From: Saccharopolyspora rhizosphaerae
Lineage (GTDB): Bacteria > Actinomycetota > Actinomycetes > Mycobacteriales > Pseudonocardiaceae
Assembly: GCF_003931915.1 (NCBI RefSeq)
Contig: NZ_RSAA01000007.1
Location: forward strand, 124,001 to 188,000
DNA length: 64,000 nt
Direction of reading: 5' to 3'
Shown: positions 41,716-52,675 of the stretch, piece after piece
Layout: every line of letters begins with the position of its first letter
Numbering within the stretch: the stretch's first letter is position 1
The notes under the pieces: model-generated
The model's input: only the letters and a program-made list of their open reading frames with translations
Database searches by the model: none
What the model was told of the DNA's origin: nothing
Translations under genes and position numbers: made by a program

Positions 41716-42954
41716 TCAGAGCTCGACGCCGAGCAGCGCGTCGACCGCCGCGCGGACCGCCCCGGGCGAGCCCTGGTCGTCGCCGCCGGAGATCAGCGCC
41801 GACTCCACCCACGCGTCGACGGCGCGCAACGCGCCTGCGGTGTCCAGGTCGTTCGACAGCGCCTCGCGCAACTCCGCGATCGCCTCCGCGGCCGACGGGC
41901 CGGAGTTCAGCGCGACGGCCTCCCGCCAGCGCGCCAACCGGGCCGTGCCCGCGGTCAGCGCGTCCGCGGTCCACGAGCGGTCCTCCCGGTAGTGGCCGTC
42001 GAGCAGTGCCAGCCGGATCGCCATCGGGTCCACCCGGTCGCCGCGCAGCCGCGAGACGAACACCAGGTTCCCGCGCGACTTCGACATCTTCTCGCCGTCG
42101 AGCCCGATCATGCCGGAGTGCACGTAGTGCTGGGCGAACGGGAAGTCGCCGGAGAGCGCTTCGGCGTGCGCGGCGCTGAACTCGTGGTGCGGGAAGATCA
42201 GGTCCGAGCCGCCGCCCTGCACGTCGAAGCCGAGGCCGAGGCGGTTGAGCGCGATCACCGAACACTCCAGGTGCCACCCGGGGCGCCCGGCGCCGAGCTC
42301 GGACTCCCAGGACGGTTCGCCCTGCCGTGCCATCCGCCAGAGCAGCGCGTCCAGCGGGTGCTCCTTGCCCGCGCGGTCCGGGTCTCCGCCGCGCTCGGCG
42401 AAGAAGGTGTTCATGGTGGCTTCGTCGTAGTTCGACTCGGAGCCGAACCGGCCGGTGGCCTGGTGCCGGAAGTAGATGTCGGGGTGCTCGGGGTCGTCGG
42501 CCCGGTAGGCGGCACCGGAGGCCAGCAGCTTGCCGACGGCCTCGACGATCTCCGGGATGGACTCCACGGCGCCGATGAAGTCGGCGGGCGGCAGCACCCG
42601 CAGCGCCTCCATGTCCTCGCGGAACAGCGCCGTCTCGCGCATCGCGAGGACGACCCAGTCTTCGCCATCCCGATCCGCCCGCTCCAGCAGCGGGTCGTCG
42701 ATGTCGGTCACGTTCTGCACGTAGTGGACCTGATGACCGTTGTCCAGCCACACCCGGTGGATCAGGTCGAACGCCAGGTAGGTCGCGGCGTGACCGAGGT
42801 GGGTCGCGTCGTACGGGGTGATGCCGCAGACGTACATCTTCGCTTCCGGCCCGGGTTCGGTGGGCCTGATCTCACCGGCGGAGGTGTCGAACAGCTGGAG
42901 TGGACGTGGAGTGCCTTCCACCTTGGGGACGGAGACCGATGACCAGGGTTGCAT
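41716..42954 (-). CDS. mshC: Mycothiol ligase MshC (L-cysteine:GlcN-Ins ligase)
   Basis: 412 residues, a cysteinyl-tRNA-synthetase paralogue that ligates Cys to GlcN-Ins in mycothiol synthesis. Zinc-binding Cys43 is in [17 protein letters not shown], the HIGH-type motif is HLGH (52-55), [10 protein letters not shown] supplies a second zinc Cys, and KMSKS is present near residue 290. The anticodon domain of true CysRS is absent. The start is ATG 42954 (MQPWS..., close to the M. tuberculosis N-terminus). It marks the organism as a mycothiol producer. Confidence 0.97.
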
Positions 42955-46183: not shown

Positions 46184-48133
46184 TCAGCGGCGGCGTTTGG
46201 TGCGGAGGTAGTCGCCGACGACGGCGGCGCCGAGGCCGTCGGCGTCCGGAGCCAGGACGCGGCCTCCCCCGCGCTGGGCGACGATCTCGACGAACCGCTC
46301 GAGACGCGGGTCCTCGCCGAGCATGAAGACGCTGAGCGTGGTGCCCAGCCGCTGCAAGACGTCCACTTCGGACAGCGTGACGCCGAGCGTGTGCGGTGTC
46401 GGCGGGTACTGGAAGACCGCCTCTCCGTCGGGTTCCAGGTGCGCCGTGGGTTCGCCGTCGGTGATCACCAGCACGACCGGCTGCGCGTCGGGGTTCCTGC
46501 GCAGGTGGCGGCCCGCGAGCAGCAGGGCGTGGTGCAGGTTGGTGCCCTGCTCCCACACGCCCTCGAGCGCGGCCAGCTCACCGACGTCCACAGTGGACGC
46601 GTAGCGCCCGAAGGTGACCAGTTGCAGGGCGTCCGAGCGGAACCGCGTGGCGACCAGGTGGTGCAGCGCCAGCGCGGTGCGCTTCATCGGTACCCACCGC
46701 CCGTCCTGCACCATCGACCACGAGGTGTCCACGCACAACACCACCGCCGAGCGGGAGCGCTGCTCGGTCTCGGAGACCTCCAGGTCGCCGATGTCGAGCA
46801 TCGGTGAGTCCGGGCCTTCGGCGGCGCGGCGCAGCACCGCCTTGCGGACCGTGCGGGCGGCGTTCCAGGGTTCGCTGTCGCCGTAGGTCCAGGGCCGGGT
46901 CGTGCCGGTCAGCTCGCCCGCGGCCCCCGCGCGGTCGGTGTCGCGCTCGCCCCGGCGCGTCTTGAGCTGCGAGATCACCGCCTGCAGGGCGGTCTCGCCG
47001 AGCCGGCGCAGGGCACGCGGGCTCAACCGCAGGCTGCCGTCCGGGGCGCGCTGCAGCAACCCCTGGTCGCGCAACTGCCGTTCGACGTCGGCCAGCCGTT
47101 GGGCGTCGACCACCGCCTGCGGGCCGAGCTGGCGCTCCAACGCCTCCAGGTCGATGTCCTCCAGGCTCGCGCCCGGGTAGGACTGGCTCAGCTGCTCGGC
47201 CAGCCGGTCCATCTCGCCGAGCTCGGCCATCGCCGCGGTCGCCTCGGCCAGACCCATCGGCTGGTCACCCCGGAAGCGGGCCCGCCCGGTCCAGTCCTCA
47301 CCGGGACGCAGGCCCTGCAGCTGCCGGTCGATCTGCTGCAGCGCCTGCGCGATGCGCGGATCGCCGAACGCCTGCTGGGACAGCGCCATCAGCTCGTCGC
47401 GCTGCTGTTGGCTCATCGAGTTCATCATCCGCTGCGCAGCGGCCGAGCGGGCCGCCAAGGCGTCGATGAGCTCGTCGACGTCGCGCGGGTTCTCCGGGAA
47501 GAACTCGCCGTGCCGCGCCATGAAGTCGTCGAACTTCTGCTCGACGTCGTCGCCGCGGGCGTGCGCGGCCAGCAGGTCCGACAGGTCGTCGAGCATCTCG
47601 CGGACCCGCTCGACGTCCTCGGGCGAGACCTGCTGCATGGCCTCCTTCATGCCCTGGAAGCGCTGCTCGAGGACCTCGGTGCCCAGCATCTGCCGGATCT
47701 CCTCGAAGGTCTCCCGCGCCTCGGAGGAGCGCCAGTCGTACTCGGCCAGCTCGTTGACCTGCCCCGCCGCGTCCGGCGGCAGCGCGCTCAGCTGCAGCTC
47801 GCGGAACCGGGCGTCCTCGGTGGTGTCGGCCGACAGCGCCAGTCGCTCCTGCTCCAGGGCGCGATCGAGCAGCCTGCGGACCTCGGAGAGGGTGCCGTCG
47901 AGCCGGTGCCTGCGCTGCAGCTGGCTGCGCCGCTGCCACAGCCTCCGGGTCAGGTCGTCCAGGCCCGACGAGTCGCGGGTGCCGGTGCGCAGCAGCTCCT
48001 CCAGCGCCGAGCGCGGGGAGGCGCCCTCCATCACGTCCCGGCCGATCTGGTCGAGGGCCTCGCGCAGGTCGACCGGCGGCTGCAGCGGGTCCGGTCCGCC
48101 GTGCCACGCCGAGTACCGGTACCGGGAGCTCAT
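46184..48133 (-). CDS. vWA domain-containing protein (partner of MoxR-type ATPase)
   Basis: 649 residues. A long, charged, helical N-terminal part (about 1-430) is followed by a von Willebrand factor A domain with a full MIDAS: DTSWSM (near residue 460), a Thr in EQGTNLH, and Asp in VITDGEPT. The protein resembles magnesium-chelatase subunit D-like partners. With the upstream ATPase it probably remodels another protein or inserts metal; the client is unknown. Its ATG shares one base with the ATPase stop. Confidence 0.9.
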   Translation of the reverse strand: MSSRYRYSAWHGGPDPLQPPVDLREALDQIGRDVMEGASPRSALEELLRTGTRDSSGLDDLTRRLWQRRSQLQRRHRLDGTLSEVRRLLDRALEQERLALSADTTEDARFRELQLSALPPDAAGQVNELAEYDWRSSEARETFEEIRQMLGTEVLEQRFQGMKEAMQQVSPEDVERVREMLDDLSDLLAAHARGDDVEQKFDDFMARHGEFFPENPRDVDELIDALAARSAAAQRMMNSMSQQQRDELMALSQQAFGDPRIAQALQQIDRQLQGLRPGEDWTGRARFRGDQPMGLAEATAAMAELGEMDRLAEQLSQSYPGASLEDIDLEALERQLGPQAVVDAQRLADVERQLRDQGLLQRAPDGSLRLSPRALRRLGETALQAVISQLKTRRGERDTDRAGAAGELTGTTRPWTYGDSEPWNAARTVRKAVLRRAAEGPDSPMLDIGDLEVSETEQRSRSAVVLCVDTSWSMVQDGRWVPMKRTALALHHLVATRFRSDALQLVTFGRYASTVDVGELAALEGVWEQGTNLHHALLLAGRHLRRNPDAQPVVLVITDGEPTAHLEPDGEAVFQYPPTPHTLGVTLSEVDVLQRLGTTLSVFMLGEDPRLERFVEIVAQRGGGRVLAPDADGLGAAVVGDYLRTKRRR

Positions 48134-49533
48134 CAGCTGTACACCGACCGGTCGTCGTCGGAGTCCTTGGCCAGCCGCTTGGCCAGGTACAACGATTCCA
48201 GCGCGAGCTCCACCGCGCTGGCGATGCGGCCCGGCGGGTCGTCGGGACGCACCCCTGCGCGTTCGGCGACCTGGTGCAGCACCGGCAGTTCGGGCAGCGC
48301 CGTCAGGACGTCCTTGCCGGCGATCTGCTCGCCGGTGGCCACCGGGTGGCCGTCGACGACGGCGTCGGCCAGCGACTGCAGGTCCAGCCCGGCGAACATG
48401 CCGCGGGCGGTGTCGGCCACCGACCGGCGCAGCAGGTAGCCCAGCAGCTCGTCCTCGCGTCCCTCCTCGCCGGCTTCGAACTCGACCTTGCCGCGCAGCA
48501 CGGCGGGCACCGCGCCGAGGTCGACCGGGCGGGCCACGGCGGGCTCCTCACCGGTCAGCGCCGAGCGGTGCAGCGCCGCGGCGGCGACGGTCTCGGCGGC
48601 GGCGATGGCGAACCGCGCGGACACGCCCGACCGCTGGTCCACCGCGCTGGACTCGCGCAAGTGGTCCACGAAGCGCGCCAGCACCTCCAGCAGGTGGTCA
48701 CCGACCTCGGCGGGCAGCTCCGCCTCCTGGCGCATCAACGACACCTCGTCGTCGATCTCCGTCGGGTAGTGGGTGCGGACCTCGGCGCCGAAGCGGTCCT
48801 TGAGCGGGGTGATGATGCGCCCGCGGTTGGTGTAGTCCTCCGGGTTGGCGGTGGCCACGAGCAGCACGTCCAGCGGTAGCCGCAGGCTGTAGCCGCGGAT
48901 CTGGATGTCGCGCTCCTCCATCACGTTCAGCAGCGCCACCTGGATCCGCTCGGCCAGGTCCGGCAGTTCGTTGATGGTCACGATGCCGCGGTGCGCGCGC
49001 GGCACGAGTCCATAGTGGATGGTCTCGGGATCACCCAGCGAACGGCCCTCGGCGACCTTGACCGGGTCGACGTCGCCGACGAGGTCACCGACCGAGGTGT
49101 CCGGAGTGGCCAGCTTCTCGACGTAGCGGTCGTCGCGGTGCCGCCAGGCCACCGGGAGGTCGTCCCCGAGTTCGGCGGCGCGGCGGCGCGAGACCGGCGT
49201 GATCGGTTGCAGCGGGTGCTCACCCAGCTCGGAACCCTCGATGACCGGGGTCCATTCGTCGAGCAGCGAGTGCAAGGCGCGCAACAACCGGGTTTTGCCC
49301 TGGCCGCGCTCCCCGAGCAGCACCACGTCGTGCCCGGCGATCAGCGCGCGTTCCAGCTGGGGCAGCACGGTCCGGTCGAAACCGACGATGCCGGGCCACA
49401 GCGCCCGCCCGGAGCGCAGCGCGGTCAGCAGGTTCGCGCGCATCTCGGCCTTGATGCTGCGGGGCTCGTGTCCGCTGGTGCGCAGCTCCCCCGCCGTGCG
49501 AGGCAGCCCTGGAGGTGGAGTCGGGATCGTCAC
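48133..49533 (-). CDS. MoxR/magnesium-chelatase-like AAA+ ATPase
   Basis: 466 residues. Walker A is GERGQGKTR near residue 67. Walker B lies in GIVTINELPDLAERIQVALLNVMEE, the MoxR/BchI pattern in which the usual DEL becomes NEL, and the sensor region is LLVATANPEDYTNRGRI. I chose GTG 49533, where MTIPTPPPG begins; an upstream in-frame extension overlaps the divergent hydrolase gene and is not conserved. It forms a two-gene operon with the vWA protein. Confidence 0.9.
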   Translation of the reverse strand: MTIPTPPPGLPRTAGELRTSGHEPRSIKAEMRANLLTALRSGRALWPGIVGFDRTVLPQLERALIAGHDVVLLGERGQGKTRLLRALHSLLDEWTPVIEGSELGEHPLQPITPVSRRRAAELGDDLPVAWRHRDDRYVEKLATPDTSVGDLVGDVDPVKVAEGRSLGDPETIHYGLVPRAHRGIVTINELPDLAERIQVALLNVMEERDIQIRGYSLRLPLDVLLVATANPEDYTNRGRIITPLKDRFGAEVRTHYPTEIDDEVSLMRQEAELPAEVGDHLLEVLARFVDHLRESSAVDQRSGVSARFAIAAAETVAAAALHRSALTGEEPAVARPVDLGAVPAVLRGKVEFEAGEEGREDELLGYLLRRSVADTARGMFAGLDLQSLADAVVDGHPVATGEQIAGKDVLTALPELPVLHQVAERAGVRPDDPPGRIASAVELALESLYLAKRLAKDSDDDRSVYS

Positions 49534-49652
49534 CCCACCGACGCTACTCCCGCGTCGGGGTGAACGCCGCCACTGCGACGAGGATTTCGGATCGCGGGCC
49601 GGAGGAGTAGAAATTCGAGGTGACGTCTTCACCGAGCGCAGTGGGAGGCCCT

Positions 49653-50888
49653 GTGGCACTGGAGATCGAGGTGGATCCCGGCGAGGTCGGCTTCGACGCG
49701 GACCGGTTGCAGCGGATCGATCGGCACTTCGAGAACTACGTCGCGACGGGCAAGCTGCCCGGCTGGCTGGTGCTCGTCGCCCGCCACGGCAAGATCGCGC
49801 ACCTGTCCACGCACGGCGCCCGCGACATCGCGAGCGGTGCACCGGTCGAGACGGACACGCTGTTCCGGATCTACTCGATGACCAAGCCGATCACCTCGGT
49901 GGCGGCCATGATGCTCTACGAGGAAGGCGCTTTCGAGCTGACCGACCCGGTCAGCGACTTCATCCCGTCGTTCGCCGACATGCGCGTCTACACCGGCGGG
50001 CCGGCCACCGCCCCGCAGACCCGGCCGGCCGTGGAACCGGTGCGGATCTGGCACCTGCTCACCCACACAGCCGGGCTCACCTACGCCTTCAACCACCTGC
50101 ACCCGCTCGACGAGCTGCACCGCCGCGCCGGCTTCGAGTTCGGCATGGCGTCCGACCTGGACCTGGCCGCCTGCTGCGACGCCTGGGCGGAGATCCCGCT
50201 GCTGTTCGACCCGGGCACGCGCTGGAACTACTCGGTGGCCACCGACGTCCTCGGCCGGGTCGTCGAGGTCGCCTCCGGGCAGTCCCTCGACGAGTTCTTC
50301 CGCACCCGCGTCCTGGAACCGCTGGACATGACCGACACCGGTTTCCAGGTCGCCTCCTCCGACGCCGACCGGCTGGCCTCGCTGTACTCGGCGGACCGCC
50401 AGGGCAAGGCCCGCCTGCACCCGCAGCACGAGAAGATGTGGGCCACCGCGTTCGAGCCGCCGAAGGCGCCCTCCGGCGGCGGTGGGCTGTTCTCCTCCGC
50501 CCGCGACTACCACCGCTTCACCCAGATGCTGCTGCGGCGGGGAGAGCTGGACGGCGTGCGGCTGCTCGGCGCCCGCACGGTCGACTTCATGACCCGCAAC
50601 CACCTGCCCGGCGGCGCCGACCTGGAGACCCTGGCGATGGGCGCCTTCTCCGAGGTCGCCAACGCGGGCAAGGGCTTCGGCCTCGGCTTCTCGGTGGTCG
50701 ACGACCCGCTGGCGGCCAAGGTGCTCAGCTCCACGGGCGAGTTCGCCTGGGGCGGCCTGGCCAGCACGGCCTTCTGGGGCGACCCGGCCGAAGACCTCAC
50801 GGTCCTCTTCCTCACCCAGCTGATGCCCTCCAGCACCCACCCCATCAGGCCCTACCTACACCAACTCGTCTACCAGGCTCTTGTGTGA
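49653..50888 (+). CDS. Serine hydrolase of the beta-lactamase/class C family
   Basis: 411 residues. The SxxK motif is SMTK (75-78), with catalytic Ser75 and Lys78. The second motif is the Tyr of NYSVATD, and GGLASTAFW near the end takes the KTG position. No signal peptide is visible, so the enzyme is probably cytoplasmic, an esterase or transpeptidase-like hydrolase rather than an antibiotic resistance enzyme. GTG 49653 is preferred because GGGAGG lies 4 bp upstream; GTG 49620 is in frame. It is divergent from the MoxR gene. Confidence 0.88.
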   Translation: MALEIEVDPGEVGFDADRLQRIDRHFENYVATGKLPGWLVLVARHGKIAHLSTHGARDIASGAPVETDTLFRIYSMTKPITSVAAMMLYEEGAFELTDPVSDFIPSFADMRVYTGGPATAPQTRPAVEPVRIWHLLTHTAGLTYAFNHLHPLDELHRRAGFEFGMASDLDLAACCDAWAEIPLLFDPGTRWNYSVATDVLGRVVEVASGQSLDEFFRTRVLEPLDMTDTGFQVASSDADRLASLYSADRQGKARLHPQHEKMWATAFEPPKAPSGGGGLFSSARDYHRFTQMLLRRGELDGVRLLGARTVDFMTRNHLPGGADLETLAMGAFSEVANAGKGFGLGFSVVDDPLAAKVLSSTGEFAWGGLASTAFWGDPAEDLTVLFLTQLMPSSTHPIRPYLHQLVYQALV

Positions 50889-51302: not shown

Positions 51303-52103
51303 CTAGAACGCAGGCCAGGGGATCGCCGGCCAGTCTCCTGAGGGTTGTGGGTAGACGCCTGTGTCCAGCAGCCGGTCGATGCGGGTGCTGACGGCGTGCA
51401 CCTCTTTGACGGTGAGGTGCTCGGACAACCGTTCGGCCAGGTCGCCTTCCATGCGGGCGCGGACTTCGCCAAGGCGTTCGAGCTCGGCCTCGCCGACCGG
51501 TTCGCCGATCCAGCCCCACAGCACCGTGCGCAGCTTGTCGTCGGTGTTGAGGCTGACGCCGTGGTCGACGCCGAGCACGCGGCCGTCCGGGTCGCGCAGG
51601 ATGTGCCCGCCCTTGCGGTCCGCGTTGTTGATCACGATGTCGAGCACCGCGAGCCGGCGCAGCTGCTCGTGGTCGGCGTGCGCCAGCACCACCGGGTCGC
51701 CGTCGGGGTCCTGCGCGCGCAGCACCTGCCGCCACCCGTCGCGAACCTCGCTGGGGTGGGTGATGTCGACCAGCTGCGCGACCTCGTCCGCGTCCTCGTC
51801 GATCCACAGCTGCACCATCCCCGGCCCGAACGGGCCGCTGCGCAGCAGCGTCGGAGGGACCAGCCCCCACCCGGTGGCCTCGGAGACCAGGTAGGCCGCG
51901 ACCTCCCGGCCGGCCAGCGTGCCGTCCGGGAAGTCCCACAGCGGGCGTTCGCCGCGCACCGGCTTGTAGACGCACTCACCGGAGAGGCCGTCGAGTTCGA
52001 CCGAGCAGAACAGCGTGGCGTTGGACGCCTCCACGAGGCGACCCTGGATCTCCAGCCGCCCGTGCCGCAGCAGCTCGCAGGTCGCGGGCTCCTCGACGGC
52101 CAC
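51303..52103 (-). CDS. SCO1664-family protein, kinase-like fold
   Basis: 266 residues of an uncharacterised actinobacterial family related to PI3/4-kinase/HipA-like phosphotransferases. A candidate ATP-anchoring Lys47 is in CVYKPVRGERPLWDF. The catalytic loop reads LDIVINNADRKGGHIL (Asp155, Asn160, Asp162), and the metal-binding motif is VDHGVSLN (Asp180). All key positions look intact, so a real kinase is likely. The substrate is unknown. GTG 52103 starts 5 bp after the DUF3090 stop, so the two are co-translated. Confidence 0.85.
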   Translation of the reverse strand: MAVEEPATCELLRHGRLEIQGRLVEASNATLFCSVELDGLSGECVYKPVRGERPLWDFPDGTLAGREVAAYLVSEATGWGLVPPTLLRSGPFGPGMVQLWIDEDADEVAQLVDITHPSEVRDGWRQVLRAQDPDGDPVVLAHADHEQLRRLAVLDIVINNADRKGGHILRDPDGRVLGVDHGVSLNTDDKLRTVLWGWIGEPVGEAELERLGEVRARMEGDLAERLSEHLTVKEVHAVSTRIDRLLDTGVYPQPSGDWPAIPWPAF

Positions 52104-52108
52104 GGTCC

Positions 52109-52675
52109 TCAGACCTCTTCCGAGCGGCGGTAGCCGTTCTGCCGCGGGCAGATGTGCCCGGCCGGGTCCAGCGGTTCGTTGCACAGCGGGCAGGGCTTGC
52201 GACCTGCGTTGATCACCCGCTCGGCGCGTTCGGCGAAGGCGCGGGCGTGCACCGGGCTGAGGAAGACGCGCAGCGCGTCCGGACCTTCCTCGGTGTCGTC
52301 GAGGACGACCGACTCGTCGATCTCCTCCTCGGTGACCGCGAGCAGTTCGACGACGACGGCCTCGGACTCGGCGTCCCAGCCCAGGCCCATCGTGCCGACG
52401 CGGAACTCCTCGTCCACCGGCACCGCGAGCGGTTCGGTGTCGACGAGGTCCTCGGGCGTGGACCCGGGCAGCTCGGCGTCGAACCGGCGCTGGACCTCGT
52501 CCAGGAGCGCGCTGATCCGCTCGGCGAGGACCGAGACCTGTTGCTTCTCCAATTGCACGCTCACCGTGCGGACGTCCTCGGTCGCCTGCAGGTAGAAGGT
52601 GCGCTCGCCGGGTTCCCCGACCGTTCCTGCGACGAAGCGGTCGGGTTGGCGGAAGACGTGGATGACACGAGCCAT
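52109..52675 (-). CDS. DUF3090 family protein with C-terminal zinc ribbon
   Basis: 188 residues. The N-terminal domain starts MARVIHVFRQPDRFVAGT and has an acidic middle (TEEEIDESVVLDDTEEGPDALRVFL). The C-terminus holds CPLCNEPLDPAGHICPRQNG, a CxxC/H/C zinc site near residues 163-180. Its function is unknown. In other Actinobacteria it is, from memory, the usual neighbour of the SCO1664-type protein and often of mshC, which here is about 9 kb away. The start is ATG 52675. Confidence 0.9.
   Translation of the reverse strand: MARVIHVFRQPDRFVAGTVGEPGERTFYLQATEDVRTVSVQLEKQQVSVLAERISALLDEVQRRFDAELPGSTPEDLVDTEPLAVPVDEEFRVGTMGLGWDAESEAVVVELLAVTEEEIDESVVLDDTEEGPDALRVFLSPVHARAFAERAERVINAGRKPCPLCNEPLDPAGHICPRQNGYRRSEEV

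Follow-up and report, generated by a model that had tools for sequence, protein, structure and literature searches.

Organisation of the gene pair

The window analysed here, a 64,000-nucleotide stretch of the Saccharopolyspora rhizosphaerae genome, carries on its minus strand two adjacent genes. The kinase-like gene of the SCO1664 family (TIGR03843; 51303..52103) runs from a GTG start at 52103 to 51303, stop codon included, and encodes a 266 aa protein. Upstream of it, across an intergenic gap of 5 bp that the original prediction had also given and the ORF coordinates bear out, lies an ATG-initiated gene (52109..52675) for a 188 aa DUF3090/TIGR03847 protein, with a predicted PUR-like fold and a putative C-terminal zinc site. 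Both proteins are family members, scoring 384.5 bits with TIGR03843 (cut-off 172.4) and 267.7 bits with TIGR03847 (cut-off 117.25), and the latter also scores 241.4 bits, above the curated cut-off, with Pfam DUF3090 (PF11290). The nearest named relative found was Saccharopolyspora shandongensis, with 77% identity across the kinase.

The suggestion that the pair could be a true undescribed system proved too strong. TIGR03843, TIGR03847 and the histidine phosphatase family TIGR03848 described below are already catalogued in NCBIfam, named and without assigned function, and the linkage of SCO1664 to mshC is in print (PMC4255298); the system is therefore not new in name. New here are the trio as a jointly lost unit and its separateness from mycothiol, together with the placement of the folds and an active site in a histidine variant. 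The literature searched, which included few subscription papers, yielded none on what the DUF3090 or SCO1664 family does.

The flanking genes vary by lineage, and no common theme emerged from the neighbour sequences inspected by eye; a shared pathway read from the neighbours was therefore rejected. In the window the pair is adjoined by genes for a MoxR-like AAA ATPase and a VWA protein (46184-49842, minus strand), which also adjoin the second phosphatase-kinase copy of one genome (G008, locus L076).

Kinase-like protein

In an alignment of 52 kinase homologues (A1; residues counted from the GTG start), K47, E67, D155, N160, D162, R163, K164, H167 and D180 are identical in every sequence, among them the five phosphotransfer residues (Lys47, Asp155, Asn160, Asp162 and Asp180) that had been named beforehand and that lie at the positions then given. 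On the minus strand, the codon of the ATP-site Lys47 is at 51963..51965, the catalytic loop N160-A-D162-R-K-G-G-H167 at 51603..51626 and the codon of the metal-site Asp180, part of a DHG motif, at 51564..51566, while an equally invariant Pro-Trp-Pro (residues 262-264, 52/52) is encoded at 51312..51320, near the end of the kinase gene.

Searches of solved-structure sequences with the single window proteins gave chance matches only, whereas a profile search retrieved PI4-kinase type II-beta (2.5e-4), FAM20A (4e-4) and, weakly, a FAM20B-type kinase. The window protein itself scores 23.9 bits with the PI3/PI4 kinase profile PF00454, below the gathering cut-off of 27.1, and 45 of the 52 homologues match this profile at E 0.01 or better; the HipA_2 profile matches three of the 52, weakly. 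The AlphaFold2 model (pLDDT 90.9) has PI4-kinase type II-beta as its first match among solved structures in Foldseek (E 5e-6), and VIA aligned it with PI4-kinase type II at Z 18.3 over 229 residues (rmsd 3.6-3.9), followed by FAM20 (Z about 15), CtkA (13.5) and HipA (11). Model and alignment together thus place the ATP-site lysine and the metal-site aspartate in a kinase fold. Of the kinase-like character claimed earlier, the fold and the intact active site are supported by the profile and fold comparisons, while activity stays predicted. The likeness to PI4-kinase type II includes the Lys, N-x-D-R and D-x-G motifs, but identity is 18-20% and the window kinase is acidic and differs at one metal site.

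In PI4-kinase type II the Asn of the DRxxxN motif binds metal. According to the register of the profile alignment, this residue, expected in PI3/PI4 kinases five positions past the catalytic Asp, is replaced by His167, and the histidine is present in all 52 homologues. A histidine at a metal site is unusual and could signal altered or lost catalysis. The SCO1664 protein might accordingly be a pseudokinase, a nucleotide-binding scaffold beside which the DUF3090 protein and the phosphatase do the work, and FAM20A, itself a pseudokinase, is among the profile matches. We regard this as rather unlikely, as Lys47, Glu67, Asp162 and Asp180 are all invariant and pseudokinases usually lose such residues.

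With PI4-kinase type II as the nearest solved fold, the enzyme might instead phosphorylate phosphatidylinositol (PI) or an inositol phosphate, a step that the histidine phosphatase would reverse, and an unidentified phosphatase does figure in accounts of mycobacterial PI synthesis (PMC6506517, PMC7502851). Such a role is nevertheless unlikely: pI exceeds 7 in none of the 52 kinases, no lipid-handling domain was seen, FAM20 and HipA match only slightly less well, and the trio has been lost in a genus that, on our assumption, still makes PI. A point in its favour would be PI3P, which has reportedly been described in Actinomycetes; no report of it was found in the literature searched. FAM20 and HipA are protein or sugar kinases, and the SCO1664 family resembles FAM20 and HipA/CtkA in fold (Z 15 to 11), with weak profile matches to FAM20A and a FAM20B-type kinase. 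It differs from HipA/CtkA in that no HipB-like antitoxin was found, the adjacent partner matching DUF3090 only. Unlike toxin-antitoxin genes, it is kept vertically and in single copy in nearly all genomes. A defence role was rejected, and a toxin-antitoxin role seems unlikely, on the vertical-looking tree and on the PADLOC anti-phage defence models, none of which matched either window protein.

DUF3090 protein

The zinc site proposed for the DUF3090 protein in the original prediction, C162-x2-C165-x8-H174-x-C176 (52148..52192, minus strand), is nearly invariant in an alignment of 52 DUF3090 proteins (A2), each cysteine being present in 52/52 and the histidine in 51/52; a putative metal-binding protein is what DUF3090 is termed in PMC9425974. 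R25, E43 and K44 are identical in all 52 proteins. The AlphaFold2 model (pLDDT 85.2) resembles the two-repeat beta-sheet-helix arrangement of PUR-alpha: the top five VIA matches are all PURA repeats I-II (Z 9.1-9.6, the next match reaching 6.5), the best of them with Z 9.6 and rmsd 3.2 over 112 residues (Foldseek E 8e-3). The DUF3090 protein differs from PUR-alpha in its low identity (7%), its acidity and its added zinc site, and Pfam and profile searches gave no sequence-level match to PURA.

A PUR-like protein might bind RNA or single-stranded DNA and bring the kinase to RNA or to an RNA-bound protein. The five PURA matches would fit such a role, but DUF3090 is acidic in every one of the 52 proteins, with a median pI of 4.53 and a median charge of -15 on the PUR-like part, and the likeness to PURA does not extend to sequence. 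Because of this uniform acidity we infer no nucleic-acid binding for DUF3090, and recruitment of the kinase to RNA appears very improbable. In one genome (G240, C1:4373694-4374219) the DUF3090 match is split into two pieces that overlap and differ in reading frame, for which a frameshift or a sequencing error may be the cause.

Histidine phosphatase and gene order

The usual arrangement comprises a third gene, giving the order phosphatase, DUF3090, kinase. The pairing described in the original prediction holds, but this third member, a histidine phosphatase of the TIGR03848 (MSMEG_4193) family, had been missed. Of the 74 phylum-sample genomes matching both, 73 have it upstream of DUF3090, the exception being the window's own genome, in which the phosphatase gene, scoring far above the cut-off, is detached on another contig (C10). 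One of the 74 genomes with the pair (G150) had no phosphatase match, its locus being at a contig end. DUF3090 directly precedes the kinase on the same strand in 72/74 phylum-sample genomes, the other two loci lying where a contig ends. In 41 of 49 loci the kinase start, picked by rule and unproven, overlaps the DUF3090 stop or is no more than 30 bp away from it.

Among 80 named loci, with several kb fetched on each side in most and some cut by contig ends, the kinase is accompanied by phosphatase, DUF3090 and mshC in 56, by phosphatase and DUF3090 in 10, by DUF3090 only in 12, by DUF3090 and mshC in one and by mshC only in one. Since 12 of these loci hold DUF3090 and the kinase with neither phosphatase nor mshC, the phosphatase is the loosest member of the trio by position. 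Histidine phosphatases form a large family, which weakens phosphatase matches as evidence: 13 of 14 control genomes match TIGR03848, 12 of them only below the cut-off.

By gene numbering, M. tuberculosis probably also has the trio, as Rv2133c-Rv2135c; the pairing of Rv2135c with Rv2134c and Rv2133c follows, in this reading, from the gene numbers. Going by family name and gene order, Rv2135c would be the phosphatase partner's orthologue, although what is reported for this homologue is a weak acid phosphatase activity of a generic kind (PMC3866925). The detached phosphatase gene of the window's genome (L001:2224-3102, minus strand) lies beside an ORF that by eye resembles undecaprenyl-diphosphatase, and the same neighbourhood has been reported for Rv2135c/Rv2136c (PMC3866925).

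Co-occurrence and shared loss

Co-conservation of the pair, the lack of which had been named in advance, together with a failure to bind nucleotide, as grounds for abandoning a joint function, was examined in a phylum sample of 178 genomes, which bears it out, and an order sample of 120. In the former, TIGR03843 and TIGR03847 each match 75/178 genomes and occur together in 74; the two unpaired genomes are one with only a marginal kinase match (G165, E 9e-4) and one with DUF3090 alone (G163), whose contig ends five bases past the DUF3090 match. In the order sample each family is present in 115/120 genomes, and the same five genomes lack both: G184, G194 and three members of one genus, G233, G260 and G270. 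TIGR03848 above the cut-off is likewise found in none of these five, compared with all five sister genomes.

In G270 both flanks of the trio still align with those of its sister G227, while the trio stretch itself does not, and no trio matches were found in the corresponding stretches of G233 and G260. All three genomes retain MshC and Pup. MshC is missing from both G184 and G194, and Pup also from G194, so that assembly gaps are a possible cause of the missing trio there. Adjacency, shared presence and shared loss give good support to the joint function proposed for the pair, and the pattern of loss speaks for a single functional unit of all three genes that is separate from mycothiol.

Corynebacterium glutamicum, a control, has kinase and phosphatase above the cut-offs and no DUF3090 match, and the second copy in G008 likewise consists of phosphatase and kinase only; DUF3090, dispensable in these two cases, may thus have only an accessory role. 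The kinase of the G008 second copy clusters with the L094-L097 lineage (93/91 support), which suggests that this phosphatase-kinase pair was acquired by transfer.

Relation to mycothiol synthesis and the proteasome

The mycothiol ligase gene mshC adjoins the trio in many Actinobacteria; in the window it lies about 8 kb from the pair (41719..42948, minus strand; TIGR03447, 686.5 bits). According to PMC4255298, linkage of SCO1664 to mshC is invariable, and the trio proteins could on this ground assist or regulate mycothiol synthesis. The 56 named loci with all four genes together would agree, as would the presence of the pair in all 16 phylum-sample genomes with MshC above the cut-off. However, the pair is not confined to genomes with MshC: 58 of the 74 phylum-sample genomes with the pair lack it above the cut-off. 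Conversely, G233, G260 and G270 keep mshC and Pup with the trio lost, which places the module outside the synthesis of mycothiol. Mycothiol was rejected on these two grounds as the core function, and an assisting or regulatory role in its synthesis is quite improbable.

Pup matches 78/178 phylum-sample genomes, nearly the same set as the pair. A proteasome link was rejected, since clear Pup occurs in four pair-less genomes of each sample (G044, G055, G103 and G168 in the phylum sample, with G039 marginal, and four of the five in the order sample) and since G021 and G169 have the pair and no Pup match; the overlap likely reflects shared ancestry. The window's genome contains, besides the main Pup gene on C32, a second, weaker Pup-like match (G000:C11:143829-143975, E 9.3e-8) above the family cut-off.

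Proposed function

On balance, and with moderate confidence, the best explanation is that the pair supplies two of the three proteins of a phosphorylation module, namely a kinase and its partner, the third being a phosphatase that opposes the kinase. This reading is built on genomic and structural evidence: gene order, co-occurrence, shared loss, the conserved active-site residues and the modelled kinase fold. The SCO1664 protein would be a small, probably active phosphotransferase that uses ATP and belongs with PI4-kinase type II, FAM20 and HipA among the atypical kinases. The DUF3090 protein, with its PUR-like fold and zinc site, would serve as a partner or adaptor in physical contact with the kinase, and the TIGR03848 phosphatase, encoded just upstream in most genomes, would remove the phosphate or recycle the product.

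As the substrate of this module, a protein is a reasonable guess, with a little under an even chance of being right; a small metabolite such as inositol or a sugar is a tentative one. A lipid seems unlikely and a nucleic acid highly so. A more specific proposal, prompted by the unidentified phosphatase of mycobacterial PI synthesis (PMC6506517), is a long shot: the trio would be an actinobacterial phosphoinositide or inositol-phosphate cycle in which a PI4KII-like kinase of the cytosol and a histidine phosphatase, together with an acidic zinc adaptor, control an inositol lipid or its phosphate; if true, it would supply genes for an actinobacterial lipid-metabolism activity that now has none.

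Many Actinobacteria, by gene numbering probably Streptomyces (SCO1664) among them, keep this trio and its active site of the kinase type, and if the proposed cycle of phosphorylation and dephosphorylation is real, bacterial regulation would gain a system of reversible phosphorylation built around a FAM20/PI4KII-type kinase. The shared loss within one genus is a natural knockout for comparison, and the phosphatase and the invariant histidine offer concrete assays. Published clues, which are few, also touch on the probable mycobacterial counterparts. A table of transposon mutants whose sensitivity to sub-MIC rifampicin is altered includes Rv2134c, with a value of -1.42 (PMC11329110). MSMEG_4192, which by gene order would be the DUF3090 protein, appears in a ClpC1 interactome list (PMC10433963), and its mutants are reported as over-represented after dibucaine treatment (PMC10127668).
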